Below, one piece after another: positions 1 through 12,561 of a DNA stretch of 12,561 bases. The notes beneath the pieces are model-generated. The model was not told where the DNA came from and did not search any database. It saw only the letters and a program-made list of their open reading frames with translations. The stretch's first letter is position 1. Each line of letters opens with the position of its first letter. The DNA is taken from positions 1-12,561 of the forward strand of contig CAMPHJ010000054.1 in the NCBI GenBank assembly GCA_946885845.1, given 5' to 3'. This DNA comes from an uncultured Sphingobium sp. (GTDB lineage Bacteria > Pseudomonadota > Alphaproteobacteria > Sphingomonadales > Sphingomonadaceae). The position numbers and the translations under genes were made by a program.

Positions 1-122
1 TAGAGCCTGCCCCGCGCGGTTGCGGGACCGGCATGGCGCGCGACAGAGGCCAGCCATTTCGCCATCGGGCCGGCAAACCCGGCGCGCAGGGTTCCGTATA
101 CAAAAAGCAATTGCTGATCCAT
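1..122 (-). CDS. Gamma-glutamylcyclotransferase-like protein, N-terminal part (runs off the left edge)
   Basis: The minus strand from the ATG at 120-122 reads open to the window edge for 40 full codons. The product begins MDQQLLFVYGTLRAGF, continues with GPMAKWLASVARHAGPATA and ends in RGRL plus a partial Tyr codon. The LFVYGTLR motif at residues 6-13 is the glycine-loop signature of the gamma-glutamylcyclotransferase/AIG2-like fold, which binds the gamma-glutamyl group. Members release 5-oxoproline from gamma-glutamyl peptides or act on related amides; the catalytic Glu lies further on and is outside the window. I see no strong Shine-Dalgarno upstream of this ATG, and an in-frame TTG start about four codons earlier is possible. 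The family call is fairly firm; the exact substrate is not. Confidence 0.75.
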   Translation of the reverse strand, partial: MDQQLLFVYGTLRAGFAGPMAKWLASVARHAGPATARGRL

Positions 123-166
123 GAGCTGAAGCAAGGCTGTGCCATCGGCCAAGTGCAACAGGCAAT

Positions 167-206
167 AAAAAAGCCGCCCTGGCATGATCCCGGGCGGCCT
201 TTTTTA
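167..206. terminator. Rho-independent terminator, symmetric
   Basis: GCCGCCC at 173-179 pairs with GGGCGGC at 192-198 around a 12-base loop. An A6 run (167-172) precedes the stem and a T6 run (200-205) follows it, so it could terminate in both directions. The gene best placed to use it is the small minus-strand ORF ending at 248, about 40 bases away. It also separates that transcript from the cyclotransferase-like gene that starts at 122. Confidence 0.85.
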
Positions 207-247
207 AATCCCTCATGACAAGGGAAAGTTGTCGAGCGAGAAATCGC

Positions 248-331
248 TTAGGCAAAGAGAACCGAATAGAAGGTCAGCATCTGTGCGCCGACTGCAACCA
301 TCAGTGCAACGCCCTGAACAGTGTGTCGCAT
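248..331 (-). CDS. 27-residue hydrophobic small protein
   Basis: An ATG at 329-331 opens a 27-codon frame ending in TAA at 248-250. The product starts MRHTVQGVALMVAVGAQM and ends LTFYSVLFA: a short basic N-terminus followed by an almost unbroken hydrophobic stretch from about residue 5, enough for one membrane helix. Support for translation is a good Shine-Dalgarno (AGGA at 341-344 read on the minus strand) nine bases before the ATG, and a strong terminator about 40 bases after the stop, making a compact stand-alone gene. A short hairpin (364-377, TTGCC-GAAA-GGCAA on the minus strand) lies upstream in the leader or promoter region. Function is unknown; a single-pass membrane micro-protein is the simplest reading. 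It could still be a chance ORF, but RBS, frame and terminator together argue for a gene. Confidence 0.6.
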   Translation of the reverse strand: MRHTVQGVALMVAVGAQMLTFYSVLFA

Positions 332-456
332 GTTTTTGTTTCCTGCAGATTTTTCATTTTATTTTGCCTTTCGGCAAGTGCGCCTATGCGCCAGTCGCCG
401 ATTCGTAACAATCGCAAAGGATGCGTTCGCAGTTGCAGCAAATGCAACAGCCCCTG

Positions 457-1197
457 TTACTTCAAGGCAACGATCATCGCCTGGGCAGCAGCGGGCGCCC
501 GCACCTTCGCCCCGCTGATGAAAAAGGCGAACACGTCTCCATGGGTCGACTGTTCCCGCGCCATGCTGGCCCAGGCCGCGATCTCATCGGGGGTGTATCC
601 GGTCGGTTCATCGTCGCGCGTACGCATCAACCGATCATAGCTGAACCCGACATCATGCCCCTTGATCGCGGGATAATCATCATGATCGGCAAATACGACC
701 GCTGCGCCCGCTCCCTGCGCCAGCGCAAGGAAAGCCGGGTCGGCAAAACTTTCATGCCGCACTTCCAGCGCATGGCGTAGCGCCACACCGTCCACCTGCG
801 CGGGAAGCAGCTTCAGGAAGGCGGCGAAATCGTCAGGGTCGAATGTCTTGGTCGGCATGAATTGCCAAAGGATAGGGCCCAGCCGATCACCCAGTTCGGC
901 AATGCCCTGGTTAACGAACTTGGCGATCGATTCACCAGCTTCCCCCAGAACGCGGCGATTGGTGCAGAAACGCGACGCCTTGACCGCGAACTGGAAGCCG
1001 TCCGGCACCGTCCTTGCCCAGTTGGCGAAAGTGGCGGGCTTTTGCGTGCCATAATAGGTCGCGTTGATCTCTGTTGCGGTAAGATGCTGGCCGACATAGG
1101 AAAGTTCATCCTTCTGTCGCAGTCCCTTCGGATAGAAGACACCGCGCCATGGTTCGAAGGTCCATCCGCCGATCCCGACCCTTATCAGTCCGGCCAT
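457..1197 (-). CDS. DUF72 (YecE-like) family protein
   Basis: A 246-residue protein with the features of the DUF72 family, a TIM-barrel-like fold of unknown biochemical role. Visible are the N-terminal strand with GIGGWTFEPWRGVFYP (residues 9-23), EINATYYGTQ (43-52) matching the family's E-N-x-T-Y-Y-type motif, FQFAVKASR (68-76), LGPILWQFMP (106-115), and EVRHESF (145-151). Near the C-terminus is the segment DVFAFFISGAKVRAPAAA (221-238), corresponding to the conserved strand that carries an Asn/Ala-rich motif in other members. The start is supported by a GGAGGCGGAG ribosome site immediately upstream. Length is normal for the family (about 240-300). It is probably a conserved chromosomal gene unrelated to the catabolic block that starts next door. 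Confidence 0.88.
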   Translation of the reverse strand: MAGLIRVGIGGWTFEPWRGVFYPKGLRQKDELSYVGQHLTATEINATYYGTQKPATFANWARTVPDGFQFAVKASRFCTNRRVLGEAGESIAKFVNQGIAELGDRLGPILWQFMPTKTFDPDDFAAFLKLLPAQVDGVALRHALEVRHESFADPAFLALAQGAGAAVVFADHDDYPAIKGHDVGFSYDRLMRTRDDEPTGYTPDEIAAWASMAREQSTHGDVFAFFISGAKVRAPAAAQAMIVALK

Positions 1198-1282
1198 ATC
1201 TCCGCCTCCCGCGGTTCATTCTGACGGGCAACCACCGCCACTGACTGAGAAGATGTGCGCCAGCGGGCGGCCAGTGTCCCAA

Positions 1283-1957
1283 CTATACCGATGGCAAGGC
1301 CCTGATTTCCTCAGGCGTGACGTTTTTGGCGAAGGCCACCAGTTGGTTGATGGCGATGGCCTTGATCTGCGGCATCAGGTCGCTACACAGCCTGCCATAT
1401 CCGGCCACCACAGTTGATCCTTCGATGGTTGCGCTGATGTAAACGGAAACGATCTCTACCTCTCCAGGAGACAGGGCAGGATTGAGTTCGGCGACGAAGG
1501 ATGCGATCAGGCCGTGGGTAAAGCGGTAAACCATCTCCACCCGTTCCGCGACGAATGCATTGTGATTGGCCATCGCCCACAATTCCGTGAACAGATGCGT
1601 CATCTTCTTGGTGCTGATTTCGTCAAGGCTGCCCCCGATGACGATCGCAAGCGATTCCTCGGGCGTCCTGCCCGCATCCTTGAGGTAGCTCCTGACCTCT
1701 CCTGCATTTGGACTGAGCAGTTCTTCCAGAAGCACCTGGACCAACATTTCCTTGCGCGGAAAGTGGCGGCTGACATTGCCAACCTTTAACCCACATTCCG
1801 TAGCGATGCGGCGAAGGGTGAAGGCCGATGCGCCTTCTTCGATAAGGACATTCAACGCAGCACGCAGGATCGCGTCGACCGTATCGGATCCGCGCGAATA
1901 TATGCCGGGACGGGACGGAGCGACGAGCTTCGCCTTATGCGCCTGTTGATTGATCAT
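1283..1957 (-). CDS. TetR-family transcriptional regulator
   Basis: A 224-residue protein with a typical TetR N-terminal DNA-binding domain. After a roughly 20-residue leader, helix 1 (TVDAILRAALNVLIEEG, 26-42) leads into the helix-turn-helix FTLRRIATECGLKVGNVSRH (46-65), followed by F-P-R-K-E-M-L. The remaining residues (about 75-210) form the variable helical ligand-binding and dimerisation domain, with no recognisable ligand signature. The start has a GGAG ribosome site a few bases upstream. It lies last in a minus-strand series beginning with the MFS and monooxygenase genes and is the only regulator in the window, so it is the obvious candidate to control the cluster. It probably acts as a repressor released by the substrate or a CoA or acid intermediate (inference). 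Its own upstream region lacks a good copy of the GTTGA-N6-TCAAC element found before the other genes. Confidence 0.9.
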   Translation of the reverse strand: MINQQAHKAKLVAPSRPGIYSRGSDTVDAILRAALNVLIEEGASAFTLRRIATECGLKVGNVSRHFPRKEMLVQVLLEELLSPNAGEVRSYLKDAGRTPEESLAIVIGGSLDEISTKKMTHLFTELWAMANHNAFVAERVEMVYRFTHGLIASFVAELNPALSPGEVEIVSVYISATIEGSTVVAGYGRLCSDLMPQIKAIAINQLVAFAKNVTPEEIRALPSV

Positions 1958-1999
1958 AATTCTCCGTAGCGGTGATTTGAACCGATGAATAGTTCTGCA

Positions 2000-2013
2000 C
2001 GCCGTTAACGGCG
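2000..2013. promoter_or_regulatory. 14-bp perfect palindrome in the tetR upstream region
   Basis: CGCCGTTAACGGCG reads the same on both strands and lies 43 bases upstream of the TetR start codon, where an autoregulatory operator would be expected. A looser inverted repeat, GAAC-N9-GTTC, occurs between it and the gene (about 1980-1996). No copy of either is evident before the other cluster genes. It could bind the TetR protein or another factor, or be a chance G+C-rich palindrome. Confidence 0.35.
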
Positions 2014-2172
2014 GCTTCAGTTATGATCGTTCACCCTTTAAGTACCCAGACTGCCAATGAATTGATTGCAGGCCAAAGCCTGATGTTGGGGAGCAAGGCT
2101 GTCTGTCCGCAGCCTTTCATGCGATCGACCTGCCATGGCTGGCCAGTAGATCGAACCGATTGCCCTGGGTCG

Positions 2173-2216
2173 CGACCCGGCGGCACTAGGGTCAGGACCC
2201 ATTAACCGCCGGGTCG
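2173..2216 (-). terminator. Nested stem-loop directly downstream of the monooxygenase gene
   Basis: CGACCCGGCGG (2173-2183) pairs perfectly with CCGCCGGGTCG (2206-2216), an 11-bp stem. Inside it a second hairpin forms from GGGTC (2189-2193) and GACCC (2196-2200). It begins 10 bases after the stop codon of the monooxygenase. There is no U-run on the minus strand, so it is either a weak or Rho-assisted terminator or a 3' mRNA-stabilising structure. The left arm overlaps another palindrome, GGGTCGCGACCC (2167-2178), giving a competing fold. Between it and tetR are two small hairpins (2069-2082 and 2095-2116) and no gene. Confidence 0.5.
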
Positions 2217-2225
2217 ATGCCCCGG

Positions 2226-3530
2226 TCAAAATTCGCGCAAGATTTCGCGAAGCGTCGTGCCTTCATATTCGGTGCGAACCGCACCCGCCTTCTGCAAGGC
2301 GGGGATGACGCCGTTCACCAGTTCAGGCAATTGGCGGTTATAGCCCGATCCTTCGATCAGGAAGCCGTCGCCGCCGACCTCATCCATGACCGCCATCATC
2401 TTTTCCGCGACCTGCTGTGGCGTGCCGCTGAAGTCCATGCCGCTGGCACCCTGACCGGCGGAGAATAGGTCCCGAATGGACTTGCCTTCTTCCCGTCCAA
2501 GCTTTTTCATGTGATCGAGCGCGCTGGTATGGCCACCCGCCACGATGTCCTGCGGAACAGGGACATCCAGATCATATTGGGAAAAGTCCACGTCGAGCGA
2601 GGACGAGGCCATGACGATGTTGTGTTCGAACGAAGCCTGCTTTTCTGCCTCGGTCATTTCGTGTGGTTCTTCCCCTTCGGGCAGGATATTGACCGGCGTC
2701 AGGAACACCACCTTGATGTCGTCGGGGTTGCGGCCCTGCTTTTCAGCGCGGTTACGGATGTCCTCGCGATAGGCCTTCATGCCCTTGACGCCGCCGGTCA
2801 TCATGCCGAGGACGACTTCAGCATTTTTGGATGAGAATTCGCGCCCACGCTCTGACGCGCCCGCCTGACAGAGCACCGGATAGCCCTGCGGACTGCGCAA
2901 CGTGTTCAGCGGACCCCGTGAACGGAAATGCTTACCTTCAAAGTTGATGGTGTGCACCTTTGTGTGATCGACATATACGCCCGTGTCCGTATTGGCGACC
3001 AGGGCGCCTTCTTCCCATGAATCCCACAGCTTCTTGGTAAGTTCGACAAATTCGTCGGCAATGTCGTAGCGTTCTGTCGGGGGCAGCAGCTTGTCCATGC
3101 CGAAGTTCATGGCGGCATTCTTTTCGCTGGACGTCACCATGTTCCAGCCGGCCCGACCCCCTGTCAGGGAATCCACCGTCGAAAGCAGTCGGGCGAGCAG
3201 ATAAGGCGGGTAGAATGTCGTCGATGCCGTCGCGATCAAGCCGATATGGGACGTGTCCTGCGCCATCACCGGCAACAGCGGGATCGGGTCGAGCTTGGGG
3301 GCCAGCGTGGCATTCTTTAGATCGAGTTCCATGGAGCCTGCATATCTGTCGCCGACGATCGTCGTATCTTCGAACAGGATGAAGTCGAACTTGGCGGCCT
3401 CCAGCATTTTGGCGAGTTCTTTATGGTAGGATCCATCCGCCCATTGCGATCCGAATTCCTTGCCATCGCCCGGCCATGAGGTGGCCCCGAACTTGGTGAA
3501 ATATCCGAGGTGGAACTTCGTATGCGCCAT
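2226..3530 (-). CDS. LLM-class flavin-dependent monooxygenase, NtaA/SnaA/DszA type
   Basis: A 434-residue bacterial luciferase-like protein of the two-component group that includes nitrilotriacetate, pristinamycin and dibenzothiophene-sulfone monooxygenases. These use reduced FMN from a separate reductase plus O2. Signatures: the N-terminal beta strand HLGYFTKFGATSWPG (about 7-21), DSLTGGRAGWNMVTS (about 120-134, the family hallmark), ERYDIADEFVELTKKLWDSW (about 153-172), HFRSRGPLNTLRSPQGYPV (about 201-219), QAGASERGREF (about 222-232), and a late GTPQQVAEKM. Length fits the family (about 430-460). The frame is open upstream to 3689, but the start was put at the ATG at 3528-3530: the GAGAGG ribosome site (3537-3542) is six bases from it, the protein then starts in register with relatives, and the longer frame would run into the promoter. 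The preceding ATG (3533) is the alternative. The substrate is unknown. It has its own promoter/operator at 3661-3690. Confidence 0.9.
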   Translation of the reverse strand: MAHTKFHLGYFTKFGATSWPGDGKEFGSQWADGSYHKELAKMLEAAKFDFILFEDTTIVGDRYAGSMELDLKNATLAPKLDPIPLLPVMAQDTSHIGLIATASTTFYPPYLLARLLSTVDSLTGGRAGWNMVTSSEKNAAMNFGMDKLLPPTERYDIADEFVELTKKLWDSWEEGALVANTDTGVYVDHTKVHTINFEGKHFRSRGPLNTLRSPQGYPVLCQAGASERGREFSSKNAEVVLGMMTGGVKGMKAYREDIRNRAEKQGRNPDDIKVVFLTPVNILPEGEEPHEMTEAEKQASFEHNIVMASSSLDVDFSQYDLDVPVPQDIVAGGHTSALDHMKKLGREEGKSIRDLFSAGQGASGMDFSGTPQQVAEKMMAVMDEVGGDGFLIEGSGYNRQLPELVNGVIPALQKAGAVRTEYEGTTLREILREF

Positions 3531-3660
3531 CATGAACCTCTCTTGCTGAATTGGATCAACTTTGTCGTTCAAATAAAAAACATGCGTGGGCCGACTGGAA
3601 GCGGCCTCGGCTGAAATCGCTCGTGACGCCTTACCCAAGCTTATCCATCCATCTGGCCAC

Positions 3661-3690
3661 AATAGTTGACGATCATCAACCATTGTCAAG
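3661..3690 (-). promoter_or_regulatory. Operator/promoter of the monooxygenase gene (GTTGA-N6-TCAAC, site A)
   Basis: The exact palindrome GTTGA-cgatca-TCAAC occupies 3665-3680. Read on the minus strand, a consensus -35 hexamer TTGACA lies at 3689-3684, three bases before the palindrome; the palindrome then fills the spacer, followed by a poor -10 region (AACTAT or TATTGT). It is 135 bases upstream of the chosen start. The block TAGTTGAC-N5-TCAAC-N-ATTGTCAAG is shared almost base for base with site B before the TonB-dependent receptor. A repressor bound here should block RNA polymerase (inference). Confidence 0.75.
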
Positions 3691-3740
3691 TGTTAGATGA
3701 ATGCGGGCAGAAAAATCCTGCGGCGGGCAGTGTCGCGCAG

Positions 3741-5021
3741 TCAGGCCGACCTTGCCGGCGACAAAAATGTTACCGGCATATCCGGGTCCATCTCTGCCTT
3801 TCGTGCAAGATACCAACTGATGCCAAAGAATGTTCCCGCCGCAATCAGGCAGGCCGTGACTATCGCGACGAATACGGATTCGAAGCCCCCAAATGCGTCA
3901 TGCAGCCATCCTGCAGCAGGAGACATGGCAAATGAAAACGGCAGCGTCATTACGCCGAACAGGCCCAGGACCTTGGGCAAAGCCTCCACGCCATATAGCT
4001 GGACGGCTAGCGCGCTGATCGGTGGGAAAACTGACGCGCCGCAAAGGCCGATGAGGAAAGCCGAAACCGTCAAAGCGGGCAGCCATCCGGTAAGCCCCAT
4101 GATCATCCAGGCAGCCGCAAACCCGATTCCCGCCAGTCCAAGCGTCTTGGCTGCACCAACGCGGTCGCTGGCGTAGCCTGCTAATAGCGAACCCAATATG
4201 CTGGACAGCCCGGAAACGAACAGCAGCACCGCGCCAGTCTCCAGCGAAACGCCATACCCCTCCACAATGGGCAGCATATGGGCGGCGCCGGCGATGGCCG
4301 TGCCATTGAGAATGCCGTCCCCCAGAACGATCAGCCAGAACAGGGCGCCGCCCATGATAACGATTTTCGGGGCGCGCAAAGCTGATGCTGATTCGGCGAC
4401 CAGTTCCTGTTCATCCAAACCTTCTGTCGTCGGCTCTGCCACGCCCAGCATCAGCGGCAGCAACAGCAGATGGAGCGCGGCGATGGACAGGAAAAATACG
4501 GTCAAACCATAATTTTGGATAATATTGACCCCCAATAATGGGATCACGGTGGCCAATATCGGCAGATAGGCGATCCCCATCACCCGACCGCGCGCATGGG
4601 GATACCAGGCGCCTGCCAGAACTGCGGGCGGAAGGACGGCGAACAGGGCGGCCCCTGGACCGATCAGAAGACCACATGCGGCCAGCGCGACCGGCATGGA
4701 CGGTGCAAAGGCGAGCACGGCATATCCAATCAGCGAGATCAAAGCGCCCGCAGACATCACGCGCCGAAGCCCCCAACGGGCGATCAGCCCTGCAATCAGC
4801 GGCCCAAGCGCCGTCATGGTCAGTACGGTAAGCGACAATGCCATTGCCGCCGATCCCAAGGAGGCATGATAGCGATCCTGTAGCGCCAGGACACTGACCC
4901 CCAGCCCGCCAAAGGCGGAGCCCGTACCGACATTCTGTGCTAGCGTCGCCCGAAGAAGCATGCCACCACCGCGGCCTCCCAAACCAATGCCACGCGTTCC
5001 CATGCTTACATCGCCTGTCAT
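3741..5021 (-). CDS. MFS transporter
   Basis: A 426-residue, strongly hydrophobic protein with about 12 predicted membrane segments in two halves separated by a charged loop (about 196-217). The MFS motif between TM2 and TM3 is present as GLIARWGLRRVM (78-89) and its repeat in the second half as GYASDRVGAAKTLG (282-295). The overall look (glycine-rich N-terminus, LALQDRYHASLG, FPPISALAVQLYG) resembles monocarboxylate/oxalate-formate-type members of the superfamily. A role in inner-membrane uptake of an organic acid or aromatic fits the context but is an inference. The start is the first ATG; GGTGGG a few bases upstream is a moderate ribosome site, and an internal ATG six codons in is an alternative. 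It has its own promoter region with site D, and is separated from the monooxygenase by about 200 bases containing site A, so the two are probably separate but co-regulated units. Confidence 0.9.
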   Translation of the reverse strand: MTGDVSMGTRGIGLGGRGGGMLLRATLAQNVGTGSAFGGLGVSVLALQDRYHASLGSAAMALSLTVLTMTALGPLIAGLIARWGLRRVMSAGALISLIGYAVLAFAPSMPVALAACGLLIGPGAALFAVLPPAVLAGAWYPHARGRVMGIAYLPILATVIPLLGVNIIQNYGLTVFFLSIAALHLLLLPLMLGVAEPTTEGLDEQELVAESASALRAPKIVIMGGALFWLIVLGDGILNGTAIAGAAHMLPIVEGYGVSLETGAVLLFVSGLSSILGSLLAGYASDRVGAAKTLGLAGIGFAAAWMIMGLTGWLPALTVSAFLIGLCGASVFPPISALAVQLYGVEALPKVLGLFGVMTLPFSFAMSPAAGWLHDAFGGFESVFVAIVTACLIAAGTFFGISWYLARKAEMDPDMPVTFLSPARSA

Positions 5022-5131
5022 GCACCCACCGTCTTTTCGACTGGCAGAGGATATACCCTGCCCGGTCCGATTGCGTCCACGAAAACGGAAAGCATGTTAC
5101 CTGGTGCGCACGCTGCTTACCCCGAAATCGA

Positions 5132-5166
5132 TGACAACTGTTGACATGCGACAACCTTTAGTCAAG
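5132..5166. promoter_or_regulatory. Operator in the MFS/nitroreductase divergent spacer (site D, 9 of 10 positions)
   Basis: GTTGA-catgcg-aCAAC at 5140-5155 matches the shared palindrome with one changed base. On the minus strand TTGACT (5165-5160) stands in the -35 position for the MFS gene, one base further away than in sites A and B. Immediately to the left is a further half-site, ACAAC (5134-5138), so TGACAAC-T-GTTGACA forms a second, outward-facing imperfect palindrome. The arrangement could let one protein control both the MFS gene and the nitroreductase, whose start lies 77 bases to the right; no clear plus-strand promoter was recognised. Confidence 0.6.
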
Positions 5167-5231
5167 CCCTTCATCTCAATGGAAGTAAAAGCTACTCCTG
5201 GCGCTAAATCATTTCATGGAAGGAACGATCA

Positions 5232-5813
5232 GTGATGACCAACAGGCAGACCGACACCGCTCTGGACCCTATTTTTCTCCATCGTTGGTCGCCGCGCGCA
5301 TTTGATGGGTCCGTCATTCCGGCCGGGGATTTGCGCACCATATTCGATGCGGCACGTTGGGCGCCGTCATCTTTCAATTATCAGCCCTGGCGCTTTTTAT
5401 ATGCGACGCGCGACGATGCCGCGAACTGGTCACGTTTCGTCGACCTGCTCATGCCTTTCAACGCGCTCTGGGCCAAGGAAGCATCCGCGCTTGTCATCGT
5501 AGTGAGCGAAACGACGATGGGCGCGCCGGACAAGCCAAGCCACTCGCACAGTTTCGACGCGGGCGCCGCCTGGGCCGCCATCGCGCTCCAGGCGCATCTG
5601 CTGGGCTATCACACGCATGGGATGGCGGGGATCGAGATGGAAAAGACCAGGACTGAACTGGGCATTCCCGACGGGTTCCGTATCGAAGCAGCGATCGCGA
5701 TAGGCCGCATGGGCGACCCTGCGACACTGCCGGAAAAATTGCAGGAACGCGAGGTGCCAAGCGATCGCAAATCTCTGGAAGACATCGCTTATCCGGGCAA
5801 TTTCCGGGGCTGA
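5232..5813 (+). CDS. Nitroreductase-family FMN-dependent oxidoreductase
   Basis: A 193-residue single-domain protein of the nitroreductase superfamily (FMN-binding homodimers that reduce nitro groups, enals, quinones or flavins with NAD(P)H). Motifs: RWSPRAFDG (18-26), whose Arg residues contact the FMN phosphate; RWAPSSFNYQPWRF (42-55), the FMN-binding segment; FDAGAAWAAIALQAHLLGYH (108-127), the core dimer helix; and the late strand AAIAIGRMGDP. Length is normal for the compact members. The frame starts GTG-ATG: the GGAAGGA ribosome site (5218-5224) is seven bases from the GTG at 5232 and ten from the ATG at 5235, so either may be used. It is transcribed away from the MFS gene across site D and ends before a bidirectional terminator. 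In this cluster it may reduce a pathway intermediate or, less likely, provide reduced flavin to the monooxygenase (inference). Confidence 0.88.
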   Translation: MMTNRQTDTALDPIFLHRWSPRAFDGSVIPAGDLRTIFDAARWAPSSFNYQPWRFLYATRDDAANWSRFVDLLMPFNALWAKEASALVIVVSETTMGAPDKPSHSHSFDAGAAWAAIALQAHLLGYHTHGMAGIEMEKTRTELGIPDGFRIEAAIAIGRMGDPATLPEKLQEREVPSDRKSLEDIAYPGNFRG

Positions 5814-5824
5814 TCCTTTCGCGC

Positions 5825-5857
5825 AAAAAAGGGGCGGCACATCCGCGCCGCCCCTTT
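5825..5857. terminator. Bidirectional Rho-independent terminator
   Basis: AAAGGGGCGGC (5828-5838) pairs with GCCGCCCCTTT (5847-5857) around an 8-base loop, with an A6 run on the left (5825-5830) and T3 on the right. It lies 11 bases after the nitroreductase stop and about 70 bases after the VOC gene stop on the other strand, so it can end both convergent transcripts; the U-run is better for the minus strand. Confidence 0.85.
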
Positions 5858-5925
5858 GTCCGATCATTTGCCGACCTGCCAGGCCCCATCCGGGTCACAA
5901 GCCATCATCAGCACAATCCTTGGCA

Positions 5926-6330
5926 TCAGAGCAGTTCGACCACTTCGATCAAATTGCCTTCGGGATCGTCCACAAATGCCACTTTTACGCCATGCTCCGG
6001 TTGCGATTGCACAGGGTCGATCATGGCAGCGCCCGCCGCGATGGCCGTTTCAACGAACTGGTTGATGTCGCTGGCAATGAACCCAAGGATGACCGAATAG
6101 CCCGCTGGCTTTCGCGCGTCACAGAATTTGGTCAGCGTGAAGGTTCCGGTGCCGGGCGGGTCCGACTTGAAATAAACCTCACAGATAGGCCGGTTCCCGA
6201 TGGTCGCTTCGGCGCGGCCTTCTTCGGTCAAGCCGCACAGGGCTTGATAAAAGGAGGACATCTTGTCGAGGTCCTCCACCACCAGCTTGGTAAATCCCAA
6301 TGGAAGACCATTTGTCCTACTGTCTGACAT
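5926..6330 (-). CDS. VOC (glyoxalase/bleomycin-resistance/extradiol dioxygenase) superfamily protein
   Basis: A 134-residue protein with two beta-alpha-beta-beta-beta modules (about 11-68 and 79-134). The N-terminal GFTKLVVEDLDKMSSFY (12-28) and the C-terminal VAFVDDPEGNLIEVVELL (117-134) are typical, the latter carrying the conserved metal-ligand Glu129. The usual first-strand metal ligand (His or Gln) appears replaced by Thr14 or Lys15, so canonical metal binding is uncertain. The start was put at MSDSRT, 11-12 bases after a strong GGAGGA site; the frame is open a little further upstream but without a better start. It follows the TonB-dependent receptor by 59 bases on the same strand with no terminator seen between, so the two are probably an operon under site B. 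It may isomerise or cleave a pathway intermediate or bind it (inference). Confidence 0.85.
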   Translation of the reverse strand: MSDSRTNGLPLGFTKLVVEDLDKMSSFYQALCGLTEEGRAEATIGNRPICEVYFKSDPPGTGTFTLTKFCDARKPAGYSVILGFIASDINQFVETAIAAGAAMIDPVQSQPEHGVKVAFVDDPEGNLIEVVELL

Positions 6331-6389
6331 ATTCGATACGTTCCTCCAAAAAAGGGGCACGCGTTCAGCACGCCCTCAACAATTCAGTC

Positions 6390-8927
6390 TCATCCGCCAA
6401 ATGAGTAACGCAGGCGGAGACCATACATCCTGGGTTCGCCATACAAGGTCGATGTAAAGAACTGCCCCGTGTAAGTGTTGCTGTTGCTGACACGATACAG
6501 CTTGTTGGCGAGGTTGGTCGCATAGAAGCCAACATCCATCCGGCTGCCCGCAACATTCCTCCAGTCGAGCGACAGGTTGAGCGTTCCGAATGGTTCAAGC
6601 CGCTCACCCGGCTGGTTCCCCGGAACGCTGGTGCCAGCCGTATGCTGCGCCGACGTGTGCGAATAGTTGACGAACATCGCAATCGTCCCAAGGTCGTTGC
6701 CCAGTGGTTGCTCGGCGGACACATGGAAGCTGTAGATGTACGGCGACACATATTGGAATGGAATGCAGGTCAGGTTCACAGTCGCCGGAGCGCTGATGAC
6801 ATTGCCGGTGCAGTCCTGTGTCGGGCTGCTCGGCTCAAACTCATATCTTTTGTACTTGGCGTCCGTGTAGCTGAAGGTGCCGCCGATTTCGACCCCCGGT
6901 ATCGGGCGCAAGGATGCTTCCGCTTCGATGCCCTGAATTCTCGCATCGGCCGAAAGGACGCGGGCGCCGGCCGCGCCGGTAGCGGAATTGAAGTCGCCGG
7001 TGGCCCGCTGGATGCCCTTATAGTTCAGATAATAATATGTCGCGTTCAGCCGAAGTGGCATGTTGGCCAATCGCACGTCCGACTTGAACCCGGCTTCATA
7101 TGAAGTAACGAACTCTGGCGGGAAAGTACGGGTATCGGTGAAAACCGCATTGGCATTTATACCACCAGCCTTGTAGCCCCGACTGATCTTTCCGTAGACG
7201 AGCAATTCCGGCGAGAATCTGTAGTCTATACCGACGTTCCAGGTCGGCTCACTGGTTTTGAGATTGGCGTTGAACCCGCAACCCTCAGCAGTGACGGCCA
7301 ACGTGTTGTCGGCGAAGCAGAAGAATGCGCCGGGGCCGAAGGCCTGGTACAAACTGGCTGAACCACTGACCTTATCCCAGGTATGCCGGTATCCGCCGGT
7401 CACTTTCAGGTTTTCCAAAGCAGGCGAAACCAGTCCCAAGTCCAGCGTCGTCTGGGCGTACAGCGCTTTGGACGTATTGGTGATGGCATATCGGATATCA
7501 TACGCACCGCAGAGGGCTGGATCGCCGGTATAGATGGCCGGACAGAAGCCCGTCGCCCCCGCGCCCTGCTCCCCAGCCGGGCGCTGGTCGTAGTAAAACG
7601 CTCCCACGGTAAAGGTGAGAAGCTTGTCGAACAGGTCGCCTTGAAGCTGCAGTTCTTCGGTAAAGACCTTGAGATGGTCGCGCGGGAGGCGCGTCGGCGA
7701 TGCATTCAGATAGGTGACCGGCGTTCCGTCACCCGGCAGGGTTACCACGCCCGGGGCCGGATATTCTCTGGGATCGCCATCGTCAAACTGGAAGATCGTT
7801 CCGTCGCTGTCGATGCTATAGGTCGTCTTGAAACGCTGATAGCTCACGATATTACGCAGCGTCAGTTCGTCGTTCAGGTTCAACGTCGATGTGTTGGTGA
7901 TCCCCCAGGTCTTTGTATTCTGGAACGAGTTGCTACCGTGCGCCGTCTGCCGGGGTCCCCGCGCATTTGCCTGCGCAACTGCGGCCCTGTAGACGTCGCA
8001 TGATGCGACAGCGCCGGGAATGGTCGGCGCTTCGTGACAGAAATTGAATCCGGTGAAATAGGGGGTGGTGGAAAGCCCCTCGATGTTGAGGTGCGTGTTG
8101 ACGACACCCGTACCATGGTTCCGGGAATTTGCTCCATAAGCCATGGTATAGTTTTCGAAATTCTCCGTCGGCTTGAGGGTCAGCCCGATGCGACCGGAAT
8201 ACCAGTGCATATTGTCGCGGTCGGTGTTCCAGATAACGTCATGGGTATAGCCGTCACGATCCTGATAGGCACCGGCCACCCGCAGCAGGACCTTGTCATC
8301 GACGACCGGGATGTTGACCGCCCCTTCAAATTCCCTGTTGTCGTAATTGCCGATCTTTGCCTGAACATAAGCTTCGAACTGATCAGTCGGCTTTTTCGGG
8401 ACAAGCAGCACCGCGCCCCCCGTCGTGTTGCGCCCGAACAAGGTCCCCTGAGGTCCGTTCAGAATCTGCACATTTTCCAGATCGACGAAATTGCCCGCGC
8501 CGCCCTGCTGCGGCAGTGAAATAGCGGCGGGCAATGGCACTTCGTTCAGGTAAACCACCACACCGGGGGATGCCTGAAACGTTGCGCCCTGCCCGCGGAT
8601 CGTGAAACTCTGCGCTTCTCGCGCGGGCGTGCCGTTGGTGCCGACGACCAACGACGGAACGGTCGCCTGCAAATTCTGGGCCTGCGTGATGCCTTGCTGC
8701 TGAAGGCGTTCTGGCGAAAAGGCCGTGATGGCGATGGGAACATCCTGCGCGCGCTCGGCACGGCGCTGGGCGGTAACAACGATTTCAGTTGATGGGGCGT
8801 ATCCGTTCCCATCGAGACCGGCTGTCGACTGGGCTTCTGTCTGCGCCTGCGCGGAACCGGCGATATAGACCGCCATTATCGCGGTCGTGCACAGAAGCCT
8901 GACGCTATTTTCCATAACCCGTTTCAT
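6390..8927 (-). CDS. TonB-dependent outer-membrane receptor
   Basis: An 845-residue precursor. Residues 1-28 form a signal peptide (basic start, hydrophobic core LLCTTAIMAVYIAG, cleavage after SAQA). The TonB box EIVVTAQ (48-54) is followed by RRAERAQDVPIAITAF and the plug domain to about residue 185, including the hallmark NVQILNGPQGTLFGRN and TTGGAVLLVPKKP. The rest is a 22-strand-type barrel rich in aromatic, Asn and Asp residues, ending in YGLRLRYSFGG. The start was chosen at the ATG preceded by GGGGGAAG, seven codons inside the longest frame. Such receptors in sphingomonads often import plant- or pollutant-derived organics rather than siderophores, and linkage to catabolic genes here supports that (inference). 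The promoter and operator are at 9083-9107, leaving a leader of roughly 150 bases. Confidence 0.93.
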   Translation of the reverse strand: MKRVMENSVRLLCTTAIMAVYIAGSAQAQTEAQSTAGLDGNGYAPSTEIVVTAQRRAERAQDVPIAITAFSPERLQQQGITQAQNLQATVPSLVVGTNGTPAREAQSFTIRGQGATFQASPGVVVYLNEVPLPAAISLPQQGGAGNFVDLENVQILNGPQGTLFGRNTTGGAVLLVPKKPTDQFEAYVQAKIGNYDNREFEGAVNIPVVDDKVLLRVAGAYQDRDGYTHDVIWNTDRDNMHWYSGRIGLTLKPTENFENYTMAYGANSRNHGTGVVNTHLNIEGLSTTPYFTGFNFCHEAPTIPGAVASCDVYRAAVAQANARGPRQTAHGSNSFQNTKTWGITNTSTLNLNDELTLRNIVSYQRFKTTYSIDSDGTIFQFDDGDPREYPAPGVVTLPGDGTPVTYLNASPTRLPRDHLKVFTEELQLQGDLFDKLLTFTVGAFYYDQRPAGEQGAGATGFCPAIYTGDPALCGAYDIRYAITNTSKALYAQTTLDLGLVSPALENLKVTGGYRHTWDKVSGSASLYQAFGPGAFFCFADNTLAVTAEGCGFNANLKTSEPTWNVGIDYRFSPELLVYGKISRGYKAGGINANAVFTDTRTFPPEFVTSYEAGFKSDVRLANMPLRLNATYYYLNYKGIQRATGDFNSATGAAGARVLSADARIQGIEAEASLRPIPGVEIGGTFSYTDAKYKRYEFEPSSPTQDCTGNVISAPATVNLTCIPFQYVSPYIYSFHVSAEQPLGNDLGTIAMFVNYSHTSAQHTAGTSVPGNQPGERLEPFGTLNLSLDWRNVAGSRMDVGFYATNLANKLYRVSNSNTYTGQFFTSTLYGEPRMYGLRLRYSFGG

Positions 8928-9082
8928 TGCACTTCCCCCTCGTAACAATGCTCGATGTCAGAACATTGGTGTGACTGGCATTTCTCCGTCGAACCCTGCG
9001 GCCACCTTCAGGCGGTCTTGTTAAAGGTCATTGGAACGGCTTCGCGACACGTGCGCTATCCGTCCCCTGCCTGCGCAAGATA

Positions 9083-9107
9083 GTTGACATGGTTCAACGA
9101 TTGTCAA
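9083..9107 (-). promoter_or_regulatory. Operator/promoter of the receptor-VOC operon (GTTGA-N6-TCAAC, site B)
   Basis: The exact palindrome GTTGA-catggt-TCAAC lies at 9083-9098. On the minus strand TTGACA (9107-9102) sits three bases before it in the same register as site A, so the palindrome fills the promoter spacer; the -10 region (ACTATC/TATCTT) is weak. It is 156 bases upstream of the receptor start. The rest of the 368-base spacer (8928-9295) holds no gene that I can support. Confidence 0.75.
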
Positions 9108-9227
9108 GAAAGAAGTGCAGCGAATGACTGTTTCCGGTGGGAGTGCCGCATTGGGGCCACAATGTCGGCGGCATGGAAAACAGCGCATGTGCGGGCAGCG
9201 CACTTGGTCGCTCAGACGCATATGAAA

Positions 9228-9287
9228 TTGGCGGACCATGACTGGCCCGCCAACTTCATTCTTCGCTAACTGGCGCCCGAAAGCGCC
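9228..9287 (-). terminator. Pair of hairpins downstream of the dioxygenase-like gene
   Basis: On the minus strand, just after the stop at 9296, GGCGC (9272-9276) pairs with GCGCC (9283-9287) around CCGAAA. Further on, TTGGCGG (9228-9234) pairs with CCGCCAA (9247-9253) around a 12-base loop. Neither has a proper U-run (the second is followed by TTTCAT on the minus strand), so termination is plausible but not clear. They separate this gene from the receptor promoter at site B. Confidence 0.4.
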
Positions 9288-9295
9288 CGCTATTG

Positions 9296-10360
9296 TCAGG
9301 CAGCCATGCTGTCGTCGGCGTCCGCCGGGATATTCGCCGGGCCGTTCACGGCAAACACCTGGCTGAGCATGCCGATAAACTTGCGGTCGGTCAGCGGGTC
9401 GGTCGGCATTTCAAATGTAATGCCACGGCGACGGACCTCGTCGATCAACATATTCAGCGCCTTTTCGTGCGTGATATCATCGGTGTGATCGAACGTGCGC
9501 TTCAGGTCAGCCATGTCCGTGAATACGCGCGCGCCCCAGTGCACCAGCAGGCGCATTTCATCTGCCGGTATCTGTTGGTTGACCTGTCCGTTGGTCTCAA
9601 TGCGCCAGCCATCCTTAACGGTCGGATCAGGAGCCATCACGCTGCTGATGTCCAGGCCTGTGGGGCGACGCATCGCAACAGGGCCGGTCGCCTGGGCGTG
9701 GTGGAACATCATTTCGTTTTCGGCGACAACGGCGCGACCCCACATGGGCGAGGTGATCTGCTGGGGTTCGCCGCGCGGGCCGTCCGGCCAATAGTTGAAG
9801 CCACCGCCGATATTGCCCTTATAATACCAGCCCGTGACCTGCATCTTCTTGCTGCGCCAGTGGTCGAACATGCGGGACTTGGCCATGGTCAGGAGGAGCC
9901 AAAGCGGCGTGTTTTCCATGGTCATTCCGCGGAAAACCACGCCGTCCAGATGCGGCGGCCCGCCCAGAGGGGTCGGTCCCTGAATGTTGATCAGAAACGT
10001 CTCTGGCTCGGCATATTTGGCGCCCCAATAGTTGCGCGCCATTTCGAGGAACCTGGAGTTGTAATAGCAGTCGTTGAGTTCAGGATAGAAGCAAACACCC
10101 TGACGGGCGATATACCCCCGGAACGTCCCGTTGCCCTGCAGGATCATGTCCCAGGTCAGCGTCACACCTTCAGGAATGACGCCACCGGTCGTCGCAATGA
10201 CCTCTTCAGGAGACTTGAAGTTCTCGGCAAGGATCAGTGGCCATGGGCCATTATCGCGCACAACCTTGAAAATGCGCTGACGCTGGTCTTCCGTATAGGC
10301 GTCCTCGATCACGTAGGGCGGGGCGAATGGGCGGAATTGGTCGGCGAAATCGGCGGTCAT
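9296..10360 (-). CDS. Putative non-haem Fe(II)/2-oxoglutarate-type oxygenase (phytanoyl-CoA dioxygenase-like), unassigned
   Basis: A 354-residue soluble protein I do not recognise as a named enzyme. The most informative feature is PPHLDGVVFRG (135-145), an HxD pair (His137, Asp139). It is followed by a second histidine pair in ENEMMFHHAQATGPVAMRR (214-232), His220/His221 with Arg231/Arg232 about ten residues later. This H-x-D...H...R order and spacing is that of Fe(II)/2-oxoglutarate oxygenases with the double-stranded beta-helix fold. Between them lies a tryptophan- and glycine-rich stretch (VTGWYYKGN, GGGFNYWPDGP). There is no signal peptide or membrane segment. A GGGAG ribosome site precedes the ATG. 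It is transcribed alone, 111 bases downstream of site C, and so is linked to the monooxygenase and receptor by the shared operator. Alternatives are a cupin-fold isomerase or lyase, or a metal-free relative. Confidence 0.6.
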   Translation of the reverse strand: MTADFADQFRPFAPPYVIEDAYTEDQRQRIFKVVRDNGPWPLILAENFKSPEEVIATTGGVIPEGVTLTWDMILQGNGTFRGYIARQGVCFYPELNDCYYNSRFLEMARNYWGAKYAEPETFLINIQGPTPLGGPPHLDGVVFRGMTMENTPLWLLLTMAKSRMFDHWRSKKMQVTGWYYKGNIGGGFNYWPDGPRGEPQQITSPMWGRAVVAENEMMFHHAQATGPVAMRRPTGLDISSVMAPDPTVKDGWRIETNGQVNQQIPADEMRLLVHWGARVFTDMADLKRTFDHTDDITHEKALNMLIDEVRRRGITFEMPTDPLTDRKFIGMLSQVFAVNGPANIPADADDSMAA

Positions 10361-10470
10361 CGGTTACTCCCTTGATCAGCAAAATAATCCCGTCGCGCCT
10401 TATGAAAGCGCGCGCAAGCTACCGCAACCCGCGCGAGTCGAGCAGCAGACAACGGGATGCTGTACTACAA

Positions 10471-10486
10471 GTTGACACTCGTCAAC
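10471..10486. promoter_or_regulatory. Operator upstream of the dioxygenase-like gene (site C)
   Basis: GTTGAC-actc-GTCAAC is the most symmetric copy, with 6-bp arms. It is 111 bases from the dioxygenase-like start on the minus strand and 429 bases from the CoA-transferase start on the plus strand. Unlike the other three copies it has no TTGACA/T in the expected -35 position on the minus strand (TCCAGA instead), so the promoter may be placed differently. The leader downstream on the minus strand contains a long-range 7-bp pairing (10452-10458 with 10387-10393). Confidence 0.65.
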
Positions 10487-10914
10487 TGTTCTGGACCAGT
10501 CAGCGTAGAAATCTATGGTGACATTTTTACGGCACAAGCGGTGGCCGGGTCAACAGCACCATATTTTATAGTGCGAGGGAGGGAAACCGCCGTTCCGCGG
10601 CCCGCGATGCCTTCAAAACCTCCTGCGCTCTCAGCGCGTTGCGGCAGGAAGAACCGCCATCGGTCATCCCCAATATCCCGCCCTCCAATATGAATTGAAC
10701 GCGAACCACGCGCAGTTCGACGGCCCCGCATTACGACTCATGCTGCAATGACCCAGATTGCCAACCCGCTGGAGCGCGCCTATTGCCCGGCTCATCAGCA
10801 GCGCTGTTTGAAGAAGGAAAACTCAGGCGTATGACGCCTCCCAACCAAGGGTAATCACCCACCTGCGCTGTATTTGGAACTTTTGGCTACGAACTACATG
10901 ATTGGCAGAGAAGC
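10487..10914. other. 428-base spacer without a convincing gene
   Basis: No frame shows a credible start, ribosome site and recognisable protein; the open frames here are short and arginine- or serine-rich on both strands. Near its right end is a perfect 6-bp hairpin AGGCGT-ATG-ACGCCT (10825-10839) and, just before the CoA-transferase, a possible promoter TTGGAA (about 10874-10879), 17 bases, CATGAT; both are weak calls. The spacer is long for such a compact region and could hold a leader RNA or the remains of a lost gene. Confidence 0.4.
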
Positions 10915-12156
10915 ATGATGGAAACAAAAGCGGCCCTGGAGGGGGTGAAGGTTATCGACATGAGCCGCGTGTTCGCGGGTCCGGTCAGCGCGCAGATACT
11001 TGGCGATCTGGGCGCCGACGTGATCAAGGTTGAACGGCCCAAGGTGGGCGACGACGGACGCGGCTACGGCCTCGCCTGGGTCCCGGGGAAGGACGGGCTT
11101 GAAACCCATCAGTCCAGCTTCTTCACGGCGTCCAACCGCAACAAGCGTTCAATCACCGTCAATCACGCAAAGCCGGAAGGGCAGGACATCATCCGCGAGC
11201 TGGTAAGGACGGCGGACGTCCTGATCGAAAATTACAAGGTCGGCGACCTCAAGCGTTATGGCCTGGACTATGAAAGCCTGCGCGCGATCAATCCGCGCCT
11301 GATCTATTGTTCCGTGACCGGCTTTGGCCAGACCGGGCCGATGGCCGCCCGCGCGGGATATGACGGACTGTTCCAGGCCACAGGCGGCATGATGGCGGTC
11401 ACCGGCATTCCAGATGGCCAGCCGGGCGCAGGCCCACTGAAAGCGGGACCCAGCCTGGTCGACTTCGTAACGGGCCATAATGCAGCGCTCGCGATCCTTG
11501 GCGCGCTGATGTATCGCAGCCGCACGGGTGAGGGACAATTTATCGACATCGCGCTGCTCGATAGTTCAGTGGCGATGGTCAGCCACATCATGCAGGATTA
11601 TCTGATCGGCGGGGTAGCTCCACCTCGTTTCGGCAATGGCGGCAATGGCGGCGGGCCAGCAGACATCATCCACTGCACCGACGGCATCATGTATCTGAGC
11701 GCAGGCGGCGACGAGCATTGGCGGCGCCTGACCGTCCTGATGGAGCAGCCGGAATTATACGAAGACCCCCGCTTCAATTCCAACATGAAGCGCGCCAAGC
11801 TGCATCGCGTCGAATTGATGGACATCATCAATGAATGGAGCCGCAGGTTCACGACGGCTGAACTGCAGGCCATGTTCGATGGGGTTGGCATTCCCGCGGC
11901 GCGTTACAACGATCTCGACGAAGTGTGGGATGAACCGCAGGTCAAGCACCGGAACCTTCGCGCGGCAACACCGCACCCCTGGGCTGAAAGCGGTTCGGTG
12001 GACCTCATCGCCAGCCCGCTCGCGCATATGTCCAGGACCCCGGCGACAATCCGCACCGCCCCGCCGCTGATCGGCGAACATACCGATGAGATATTGAAGA
12101 CGATCGGATATGATGACGCCCGCATTGCCGACCTGCGGGCTTTGAACGTAATCTGA
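10915..12156 (+). CDS. Family III (CaiB/BaiF) acyl-CoA transferase
   Basis: A 413-residue protein with the full set of family III CoA-transferase features, enzymes that move CoA between carboxylic acids through an aspartyl-CoA intermediate. Visible are LEGVKVIDMSRVFAGPVSAQ (8-27), LGDLGADVIKVERP (29-42), NRNKRSITVN (74-83), ADVLIENYKVGDLKRYGLDY (100-119), and ISCSV-like IYCSVTGFGQTGPMAARAGYD (130-150, the segment before the glycine loop). The catalytic aspartate is Asp183 in GPSLVDFVTGHNAAL (178-192). The C-terminal half contains the usual GDEHWRRL, PRFNSN and PLIGEHT segments. Length is typical (about 400). It starts with ATG-ATG (10915 or 10918) and only a weak AGAGAAG upstream. It is transcribed divergently from the dioxygenase-like gene and ends before a hairpin. 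It probably activates an acid intermediate or the substrate of the pathway (inference); the specific acid cannot be read from sequence. Confidence 0.92.
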   Translation: MMETKAALEGVKVIDMSRVFAGPVSAQILGDLGADVIKVERPKVGDDGRGYGLAWVPGKDGLETHQSSFFTASNRNKRSITVNHAKPEGQDIIRELVRTADVLIENYKVGDLKRYGLDYESLRAINPRLIYCSVTGFGQTGPMAARAGYDGLFQATGGMMAVTGIPDGQPGAGPLKAGPSLVDFVTGHNAALAILGALMYRSRTGEGQFIDIALLDSSVAMVSHIMQDYLIGGVAPPRFGNGGNGGGPADIIHCTDGIMYLSAGGDEHWRRLTVLMEQPELYEDPRFNSNMKRAKLHRVELMDIINEWSRRFTTAELQAMFDGVGIPAARYNDLDEVWDEPQVKHRNLRAATPHPWAESGSVDLIASPLAHMSRTPATIRTAPPLIGEHTDEILKTIGYDDARIADLRALNVI

Positions 12157-12171
12157 TCAGGCGACCGACGC

Positions 12172-12202
12172 CCGTCGATGCCCTTATCTAGGGCGTCGAC
12201 GG
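12172..12202. terminator. Stem-loop between convergent CoA-transferase and S-formylglutathione hydrolase genes
   Basis: A 12-bp stem with one G-T pair (arms 12172-12183 and 12191-12202, around CGTCGATGCCC/GGGCGTCGACG) and a 7-base loop lies 15 bases after the CoA-transferase stop and 38 bases from the stop of the facing gene. There is no T-run on either strand, so it is a probable but non-canonical terminator. Confidence 0.5.
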
Positions 12203-12240
12203 AATGCGGCCTTCGTTGCTCGGAACGGGTGAAGTCACGG

Positions 12241-12561
12241 CTATGCGGGTCTAGGACCTCGGCAAGATGCCCCGACTTCCGCCAATCGATCCGCGTGCCA
12301 GCGAAGGTGGTCCGCCATGAAGGTGGAGATGAAATAATAGCTGTGATCATAACCCTCCCGAATGTTTAGGGTCAGGTCAATATTCGCAGCAGCGCAGGCA
12401 TCCTTCAGCAGATGGGGACGCAACTCCTGCTCCAGAAATGGGTCTGCCGCCCCTTGATCGACCAGCAATGCTCCAGCCCTGGCCCCGTCCTCGATCAAGG
12501 CTACCGCATCATGCTTCCGCCAGGCGGCGCGATCATCGCCCAGATATCCGGTCAAGGCCTT
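12241..12561 (-). CDS. S-formylglutathione hydrolase, C-terminal part (runs off the right edge)
   Basis: The minus-strand frame enters at the window edge and ends with TAG at 12241-12243, giving about 106 residues of C-terminus. It is the esterase-D type alpha/beta hydrolase that releases formate from S-formylglutathione in glutathione-dependent formaldehyde oxidation. Signatures: LTGYLGDDRAAWRKHDAV near the edge, LLVDQGAADPFLEQELRPHL with the catalytic Asp, and REGYDHSYYFISTFMADHLR with the catalytic His. The nucleophile Ser lies outside. The tail after WHADRLAEV is about 10 residues longer than usual (GASCRGPRPA), possibly a lineage-specific extension. It is a housekeeping gene marking the right border of the catabolic block. 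Confidence 0.92.
   Translation of the reverse strand, partial: KALTGYLGDDRAAWRKHDAVALIEDGARAGALLVDQGAADPFLEQELRPHLLKDACAAANIDLTLNIREGYDHSYYFISTFMADHLRWHADRLAEVGASCRGPRPA

Follow-up and report, generated by a model that had tools for sequence, protein, structure and literature searches.

We propose that the palindrome GTTGA-N6-TCAAC, which recurs in a 12,561-nucleotide stretch of DNA from an uncultured Sphingobium sp. (contig CAMPHJ010000054.1, positions 1 to 12,561; this whole stretch is called the window below), is the operator recognised by a TetR-family protein, the product of 1283-1957, and by close paralogues of that protein in relatives, and that these proteins repress promoters of uptake and oxidation genes. 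We consider this reading probable on the sequence evidence. The sites are tied to the TetR protein by co-occurrence and by a residue of its recognition helix, which make it their most likely owner. The regulator gene and the palindrome copies of the window are as follows.

1283-1957, minus strand: TetR/AcrR-family regulator, proposed repressor; Pfam TetR_N; recognition helix LKVGNVSRHF (Arg64)
3665-3680, no strand: candidate operator 1, exact, GTTGACGATCATCAAC; upstream of the LLM monooxygenase gene
5140-5155, no strand: candidate operator 2, variant with a conserved deviation, GTTGACATGCGACAAC; between the MFS and nitroreductase genes
9083-9098, no strand: candidate operator 3, exact, GTTGACATGGTTCAAC; upstream of the TonB receptor gene
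10471-10486, no strand: candidate operator 4, exact, GTTGACACTCGTCAAC; upstream of the dioxygenase-like gene; overlaps TTGACG, maybe the -35 box of that gene
3545-3560, no strand: one-mismatch copy, GCTGAATTGGATCAAC; directly before the LLM start; probably chance

Palindrome copies in the window and in related genomes

A sequence-only reading of this DNA had listed the three exact copies and the copy at 5140-5155, which matches nine of the ten fixed positions, and had placed all of them in intergenic upstream regions. All four are present, and they lie outside genes provided that the monooxygenase starts at Met 3530/3533, from which its relatives align, and not at the TTG at 3689 that the mechanical open reading frame (ORF) had used. 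How surprising are they? The exact pattern averages 0.017 per shuffled window (60 shuffles), close to the earlier estimate of ~0.01, and is indeed rare by chance. The accompanying verdict that three exact copies are strong evidence has to be softened: because the motif was picked post hoc and 3 of 60 dinucleotide-shuffled windows contain some 5-bp dyad (spacer 0-12) in three copies, the window alone stands at about the 5% level after this look-elsewhere test, and by itself is suggestive, not strong. Apart from GTTGA-N6-TCAAC, no dyad with 5-bp arms and a spacer of 0-12 reaches three copies in the real window, and when up to two mismatches are allowed GTTGA-N6-TCAAC has 14 matches against 4.42 expected, a number reached in 0 of 200 shuffles.

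The window TetR has orthologues in S. vermicomposti DSM 21299 (83% identity), in Novosphingobium/Sphingobium sp. Chol11 (71%) and in two genomes, G382 (74%) and G350 (71%), located by scanning 94 genomes of the genus for TetR. Conservation upstream of orthologues, which the earlier reading had put forward as a check, is borne out: sites recur in all four relatives despite rearranged gene order. The palindromes there lie outside genes, or in the 5' part of an ORF whose start is uncertain, and head the same gene classes, namely LLM, MFS and nitroreductase, TonB receptor, and dioxygenase. Exact sites occur upstream of LLM orthologues in Chol11, G350 (two copies) and G382; the receptor-orthologue site is found in S. 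vermicomposti (one mismatch), Chol11 and G350; and the proximal dioxygenase site is found in Chol11, G382 and G350, no dioxygenase gene having been found near the cluster in S. vermicomposti. In Chol11 and G350 a site lies between the TetR and nitroreductase genes, with no MFS gene at that place. One-mismatch matches within genes are few (L081:2460, L083:18909, L084:9611). By eye, the flanks of the LLM promoter differ among the window, Chol11/G350, G382 and a further G350 locus (L091), and the palindrome and the TAT[TC] that follows it are kept.

Two imperfect copies in the window had different fates. The MFS-nitroreductase site reads GTTGACN4GACAAC, then AGTCAAG, in five out of five sequences; because the same deviation is present in all of them we rejected the idea that the 5140 copy is a decayed site and regard it as a conserved variant. 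The fifth copy, at 3545-3560, also matches nine of ten positions, lies about 12 bp upstream of the monooxygenase start and was absent from the earlier list. It has no counterpart among the sites with up to one mismatch upstream of 11 LLM copies in relatives, and it was dropped as a regulon member, being probably due to chance.

The earlier reading had left to a genome scan the question of whether the motif is common and unlinked to these genes. Counts are at background in 89 of 94 genomes, but placement is linked to the genes for TetR proteins of the window's type (Arg-type, defined below). Exact sites number 9 in S. vermicomposti, 6 in Chol11, 14 in G350 and 4 in G382, and in the 90 genomes of the genus without a close TetR orthologue the median is 4 and the highest count 11. 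Since the pattern is at background in most genomes, counts alone do not mark a regulon, and we rejected them as proof of one (background ~4 per genome). In the four orthologue-bearing genomes, 20 of the 33 exact sites are at most 10 kb from an Arg-type TetR gene against 0.41 expected; one of these, Chol11 C10:2024319, is inside a large ORF. The Fisher value calculated in this analysis takes no account of relatedness. Five high-count genomes without a close orthologue contain 46 sites, no two of which are closer than ~12 kb.

Sites are also found far from the regulator. Close LLM orthologues (E <= 1e-150) and close TetR orthologues occur in the same four of 94 genomes, and LLM copies lying far from the TetR orthologue, ~170 kb in Chol11 (C10:2202398; 90%) and ~240 kb in G350 (94%), show the same promoter-operator arrangement. 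The four genomes together contain 11 close LLM copies. For six of them a site with no more than one mismatch lies within 700 bp, and the S. vermicomposti LLM orthologue has a two-mismatch site in the same architecture. In G350, 13 of the 14 exact sites are upstream of a homologue of a window gene or of a PhyH gene, although for one of the 13 the homologue shows only 30% identity over part of its length; the fourteenth is inside a VOC-like ORF. Some distant sites have FMO-like, SDR or P450 genes nearby. The sites away from clusters are partly coding (three of four in S. vermicomposti, two in G382), and these look like chance. Conserved sites before orthologues in four genomes and placement near Arg-type TetR genes nevertheless support the original proposal of one candidate regulon.

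Residue 64 of the TetR proteins and the outer operator base

The 1283-1957 protein has an N-terminal helix-turn-helix (PF00440 TetR_N, 1.7e-10, 41 bits, cutoff 24) and a match below cutoff to a BetI-type C-terminal domain. Its AlphaFold model (32 sequences, pLDDT 86.9) is all-helical, and Arg64 is within helix 59-65. We compared 67 TetR homologue rows from the loci analysed, a number of weaker matches (most ~<=42% identity) being left out. Residue 64 is Arg, within NV[ST]RHF, in nine rows (the Arg type), Tyr in 56 and His in two. Among the 120 homologues of a separate listing, 100 have Arg at this position, and many such Arg-type proteins are known without their genomic context. An exact intergenic GTTGA-N6-TCAAC is present in the same stretch in 7/9 Arg-type rows (8/9 with the adjoining L084) and in 0/58 Tyr- or His-type rows. 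The window and seven of the eight other Arg loci, one of them through L084, combine the NV[ST]RHF helix with an exact intergenic site in the locus, the combination by which we propose an Arg-type operator subfamily; the exception is L087. Many of the other 58 are as similar to the window protein as the Arg-type paralogues are: Arg-type paralogues with 52-54% identity to the window TetR have sites adjoining their genes, including tandem pairs, and Tyr-types up to 56% identical do not.

A pattern-free dyad search of intergenic DNA gave the same result. In eight of 11 Arg-type stretches (two of the eight overlap; L081, L083 and L087 were left out) GTTGA-N6 came first, in 8/8, and any dyad from the shuffles reached at most two stretches (10 shuffles). 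Here and in the framework and held-out tests below, shuffling kept base composition only. In Tyr-type loci, of which the search covered 45 of 55, GGACA-N2-TGTCC came first, in 11 loci (shuffles at most 4), lying ~100 bp past the TetR gene in eight of the 11, at ~1.35 kb in two and at 4.9 kb in one. When the two palindromes are aligned by their centres, they disagree at the outer base and, in many cases, at one inner base.

This comparison can be made on a shared framework, TKGA-N6-TCMA with the outer base left free, which was chosen after the Tyr-type sites had been seen. The Arg-type loci contain 24 such sites (two of them counted twice; 0.95 expected from shuffles), and of their 48 half-sites 45 have G as outer base. 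In Tyr-type loci the outer base is G in 3 of 84 half-sites, C in 51 and T in 30 (42 sites in 33 of 55 loci; 3.9 expected). Further TetR scans at the level of the family (397 genomes), the phylum (398) and the order (396) yielded 14 new loci at their thresholds, all of them Tyr-type and none Arg-type, and this held-out check therefore bears on the Tyr half only. The 14 loci contain no exact Arg-type operator; 11 have a framework site, and the 16 sites (0.95 expected) have C or T as outer base in 30 of 32 half-sites. The pattern supports direct recognition of the sites by this protein subfamily. Arg64 may be what reads the outer G, and further positions may contribute as well.

Some side observations on these loci are worth recording. 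At L086:4300-4341, L086:5601-5642 and L088:5630-5671, TonB-receptor, PhyH and NmrA-like genes are preceded by two full palindromes at a distance of exactly 26 bp; such tandems are possibly cooperative double operators. The Tyr-type sister operator, YTKGAC-N4-GTCMAR, is found at L094:8560, L121:7166, L119:6011, L132:8190, L125:2348 and L164:11517, adjoining methylamine-dehydrogenase-heavy-chain-like genes in four cases and quinohemoprotein amine dehydrogenase genes in two. Seven genes adjoining Tyr-type sites were scanned, giving four Me-amine-dh_H matches, two quinohemoprotein amine dehydrogenases and one molybdopterin-binding domain, and the amine dehydrogenase genes hint at amines as an inducer class. 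On the megaplasmid of Sphingobium sp. TomMM7A (L001:6226-17969) a His-type TetR gene is ~9 kb from a homologue of the dioxygenase-like gene and an annotated cyclohexanone monooxygenase gene; that stretch has no GTTGA-N6-TCAAC at up to one mismatch.

Promoter layout and alternative readings

The sequence around the palindromes suggests how they could act. The following boxes were read from consensus and are putative.

3684-3689, minus strand: putative LLM -35 box, TTGACA; 17 bp before ACTATT
3661-3666, minus strand: putative LLM -10 box, ACTATT
9102-9107, minus strand: putative receptor -35 box, TTGACA; 17 bp before ACTATC at 9079-9084
5160-5165, minus strand: putative MFS -35 box, TTGACT; CTTGACTAA in all five sequences

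In a sense-strand alignment of the LLM and receptor sites, TTGACA stands directly before the palindrome in 8 of 11 and TAT[TC] directly after it in 10 of 11; the three without TTGACA are the G382 LLM, one G350 LLM (L091) and one receptor site (L085). A TTGAC box directly precedes the palindrome at all five MFS-nitroreductase sites. The consensus layout is TTGACA, a 17-bp spacer and ACTATT or ACTATC. A dimer bound to a palindrome in the spacer should block polymerase, and since most LLM and receptor sites lie between a plausible -35 and -10, we take repression by the adjacent TetR as the most convincing interpretation. Immediately outside the palindrome (3684-3690, 9102-9108, 5160-5166) there is also a CTTGAC resembling a third half-site, at a distance of 10-11 bp from the near half. 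It could serve as the -35 box, as an additional half-site or in both roles.

In the mechanism that we propose, a TetR dimer would bind the palindrome in its fuller form, GTTGAC-N4-GTCAAC. The bound palindrome would occupy the spacer between a TTGACA-like -35 and the -10 in the LLM, receptor and MFS promoters and would cover the likely -35 of the dioxygenase promoter, so that TetR would keep RNA polymerase off the monooxygenase, MFS-nitroreductase, receptor-VOC and dioxygenase promoters. Release of TetR would be brought about by a small molecule of catabolism, probably a substrate or intermediate that is hydrophobic or carries an amine. The cell would then turn on uptake through the TonB receptor and the MFS transporter at the same time as oxidation by the LLM monooxygenase and the 2-oxoglutarate (2OG) dioxygenase.

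Could the same sites be explained otherwise? That they are chance palindromes without function, kept through shared ancestry of neighbouring DNA, is hardly credible: a background of about four per genome and the 3/60 shuffled windows with some triple dyad speak for it, but the flanks diverge while the palindrome and TAT[TC] are kept, sites concentrate near Arg-type TetR genes (20/33), and the paralogue loci have tandem copies where the five control genomes have no close pairs. Nor are the sites at all likely to be just strong sigma-70 elements (TTGACA boxes) with the palindrome as a by-product. Each half-site does contain TTGA, and one half can act as the dioxygenase -35; both halves are conserved, however, including the outer G, which is outside the -35 consensus, and at the loci of Tyr-type relatives the outer base is C or T. 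A further possibility, which we judge to be quite unlikely, accepts that Arg-type proteins bind GTTGA-N6-TCAAC but makes them activators or anti-activators instead of repressors. Some TetR-family members activate, and the additional TTGAC-like half-sites, 10 bp away, might serve for secondary binding and not as -35 boxes, whereas the regular TTGAC box before the palindrome (8/11 LLM and receptor sites, five of five MFS-nitroreductase sites) is the arrangement expected of repression.

Several observations weigh against the TetR-operator reading, and some would fit a true regulon operator bound by another regulator, either an Arg-type paralogue elsewhere or a member of another family, with the neighbouring TetR incidental. 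No site lies directly upstream of the TetR gene itself in the window, in S. vermicomposti or in G382, and one Arg-type locus, L087 (S. vermicomposti, G001:C4:141127), has no intergenic site at up to two mismatches. (At L087:6065-6883 the Arg-type TetR gene adjoins that of a His-type TetR.) The exact sites in L052 lie at least ~8.6 kb from the S. vermicomposti orthologue, nearer a paralogous TetR, and are shared with a paralogue's stretch, L088; closer to the orthologue itself there are one- and two-mismatch sites only. S. vermicomposti and G350 have three Arg-type TetRs each, and a given site there could belong to any of the three. Ownership by another regulator is in our view unlikely, because Chol11, with a single TetR match at E <= 1e-30, keeps the regulon, and because sites track TetR genes, paralogues included, and the outer operator base tracks residue 64. 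Other points tell against the TetR-operator reading more generally: the G382 receptor has no upstream site with up to two mismatches; four of the 11 LLM copies lack any site up to 700 bp away, though two of these four end a same-strand run that a site heads; the Arg-types are a single clade (98/82) whose sister group is the two His-types, so that the residue-operator link is a single historical event; and the palindrome is more frequent than its reversed control also in the majority of genomes lacking the regulator, so that this comparison is no evidence. Having weighed these points we still regard repression through GTTGA-N6-TCAAC by the window TetR and its close paralogues as the probable explanation.

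Genes of the window, related regulators and significance

Window genes were assigned with Pfam and NCBIfam profile scans. Gene calls made by script in this analysis are heuristic (ORF plus codon-position GC).

2226-3530, minus strand: LLM flavin monooxygenase, NtaA/DmoA subfamily; TIGR03860, 407.2 bits, cutoff 279.7
3741-5021, minus strand: MFS transporter; PF07690, 1.3e-31
5232-5813, plus strand: nitroreductase-family protein; PF00881, 2.5e-20
5926-6330 (start approximate), minus strand: VOC/glyoxalase-fold protein; PF00903, 2.2e-6
6390-8948, minus strand: TonB-dependent receptor; PF00593, 5.6e-34, plus Plug; likely ATG at 8927
9296-10360, minus strand: Fe(II)/2OG-dioxygenase-like protein; HxD motif and fold search, no Pfam or NCBIfam match

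Among the site-adjoining genes, those for the TonB receptor and the MFS transporter encode uptake functions, and those for the LLM monooxygenase, PhyH and further 2OG-dioxygenase-like proteins encode oxidation functions. By sequence, the solved structure closest to the LLM protein is DszA (5tlc, E 1.8e-69). Relatives of the TonB receptor align from its residue 8. The VOC gene is perhaps co-transcribed with the receptor gene, and the order of the two is the same in Chol11 and G382. In the 9296-10360 protein, His137 and Asp139 of the HxD motif are invariant among 30 aligned sequences, and a fold search with its model returned mostly 2OG-Fe(II) oxygenases as top matches (best E 7.9e-6, TMq only 0.36); the label dioxygenase-like is reasonable, not firm. 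For its family 787 homologues were found, with several copies on single Sphingobium megaplasmids. The window also contains a CoA transferase gene (plus strand), and in the G350 cluster at L091:14044-17781 a 1245-aa cadherin and RTX-repeat protein adjoins the MFS gene.

TetR control of catabolism is familiar. KstR and KstR2, which repress the breakdown of sterols in mycobacteria and rhodococci, are TetR-family proteins with a large number of catabolic genes under their control (PMC8399759). The window TetR is likewise a TetR-family protein with proposed control of several catabolic genes, and the structure of operator-bound KstR (5fmp) is one of the folds nearest to the window TetR model (rank 10, 21% identity). 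Sequence similarity between the two is weak (E ~5e-4), and the window TetR does not reach the KstR equivalog cutoff of NCBIfam (22.3 bits vs 280). The KstR palindrome differs from GTTGA-N6-TCAAC. The best NCBIfam match is the choline repressor BetI, whose equivalog cutoff is not reached either (49.8 bits vs 201.3), and the profile scans recognised no choline genes among the window genes. A Sphingobium repressor tied to catabolism and TonB receptors, as proposed for the window TetR, is PheR of Sphingobium sp. SHPJ-2; PheR differs in being an IclR-family protein with an essential core GCAACG in a 44-bp GC-rich operator (PMC13273656). Nearest are the Tyr-type sister TetRs, mostly 48-56% identical, which have the framework TKGA-N6-TCMA in common but C or T, not the window's G, as outer base.

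A literature search, which did not cover most subscription papers and was a weak test for the motif itself, found no description of a GTTGA-N6-TCAAC operator and no study of this TetR subfamily, its regulon or the paired specificity switch. The kind of system, a TetR protein with its operator, is known; this operator, its regulon and the paired switch were not found in the literature searched. Chol11 degrades bile salts (PMC8540908). It carries the regulon, and nothing here ties the regulon to bile salts.

How might the Arg-type system have arisen? We offer, as a tentative scenario that is possible rather than probable, that a change of Tyr64 to Arg together with a change of the outer operator base from C/T to G split a lineage of amine-dehydrogenase regulators, and that the second regulator, insulated in this way, duplicated and took over a scattered monooxygenase/2OG-dioxygenase/TonB regulon; it would be a candidate regulator of the breakdown of polycyclic or amine-bearing compounds in sphingomonads, the bile-salt degrader Chol11 among them. 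If true, the Arg64/outer-G split would be a natural, testable one-residue/one-base specificity switch. The paired Arg- and Tyr-type proteins and their G versus C/T operators would allow a direct mutational test of specificity divergence in TetR proteins. More immediately, a checkable operator for this TetR subfamily would make members of the sphingomonad regulon findable by sequence, including genes far from the regulator.

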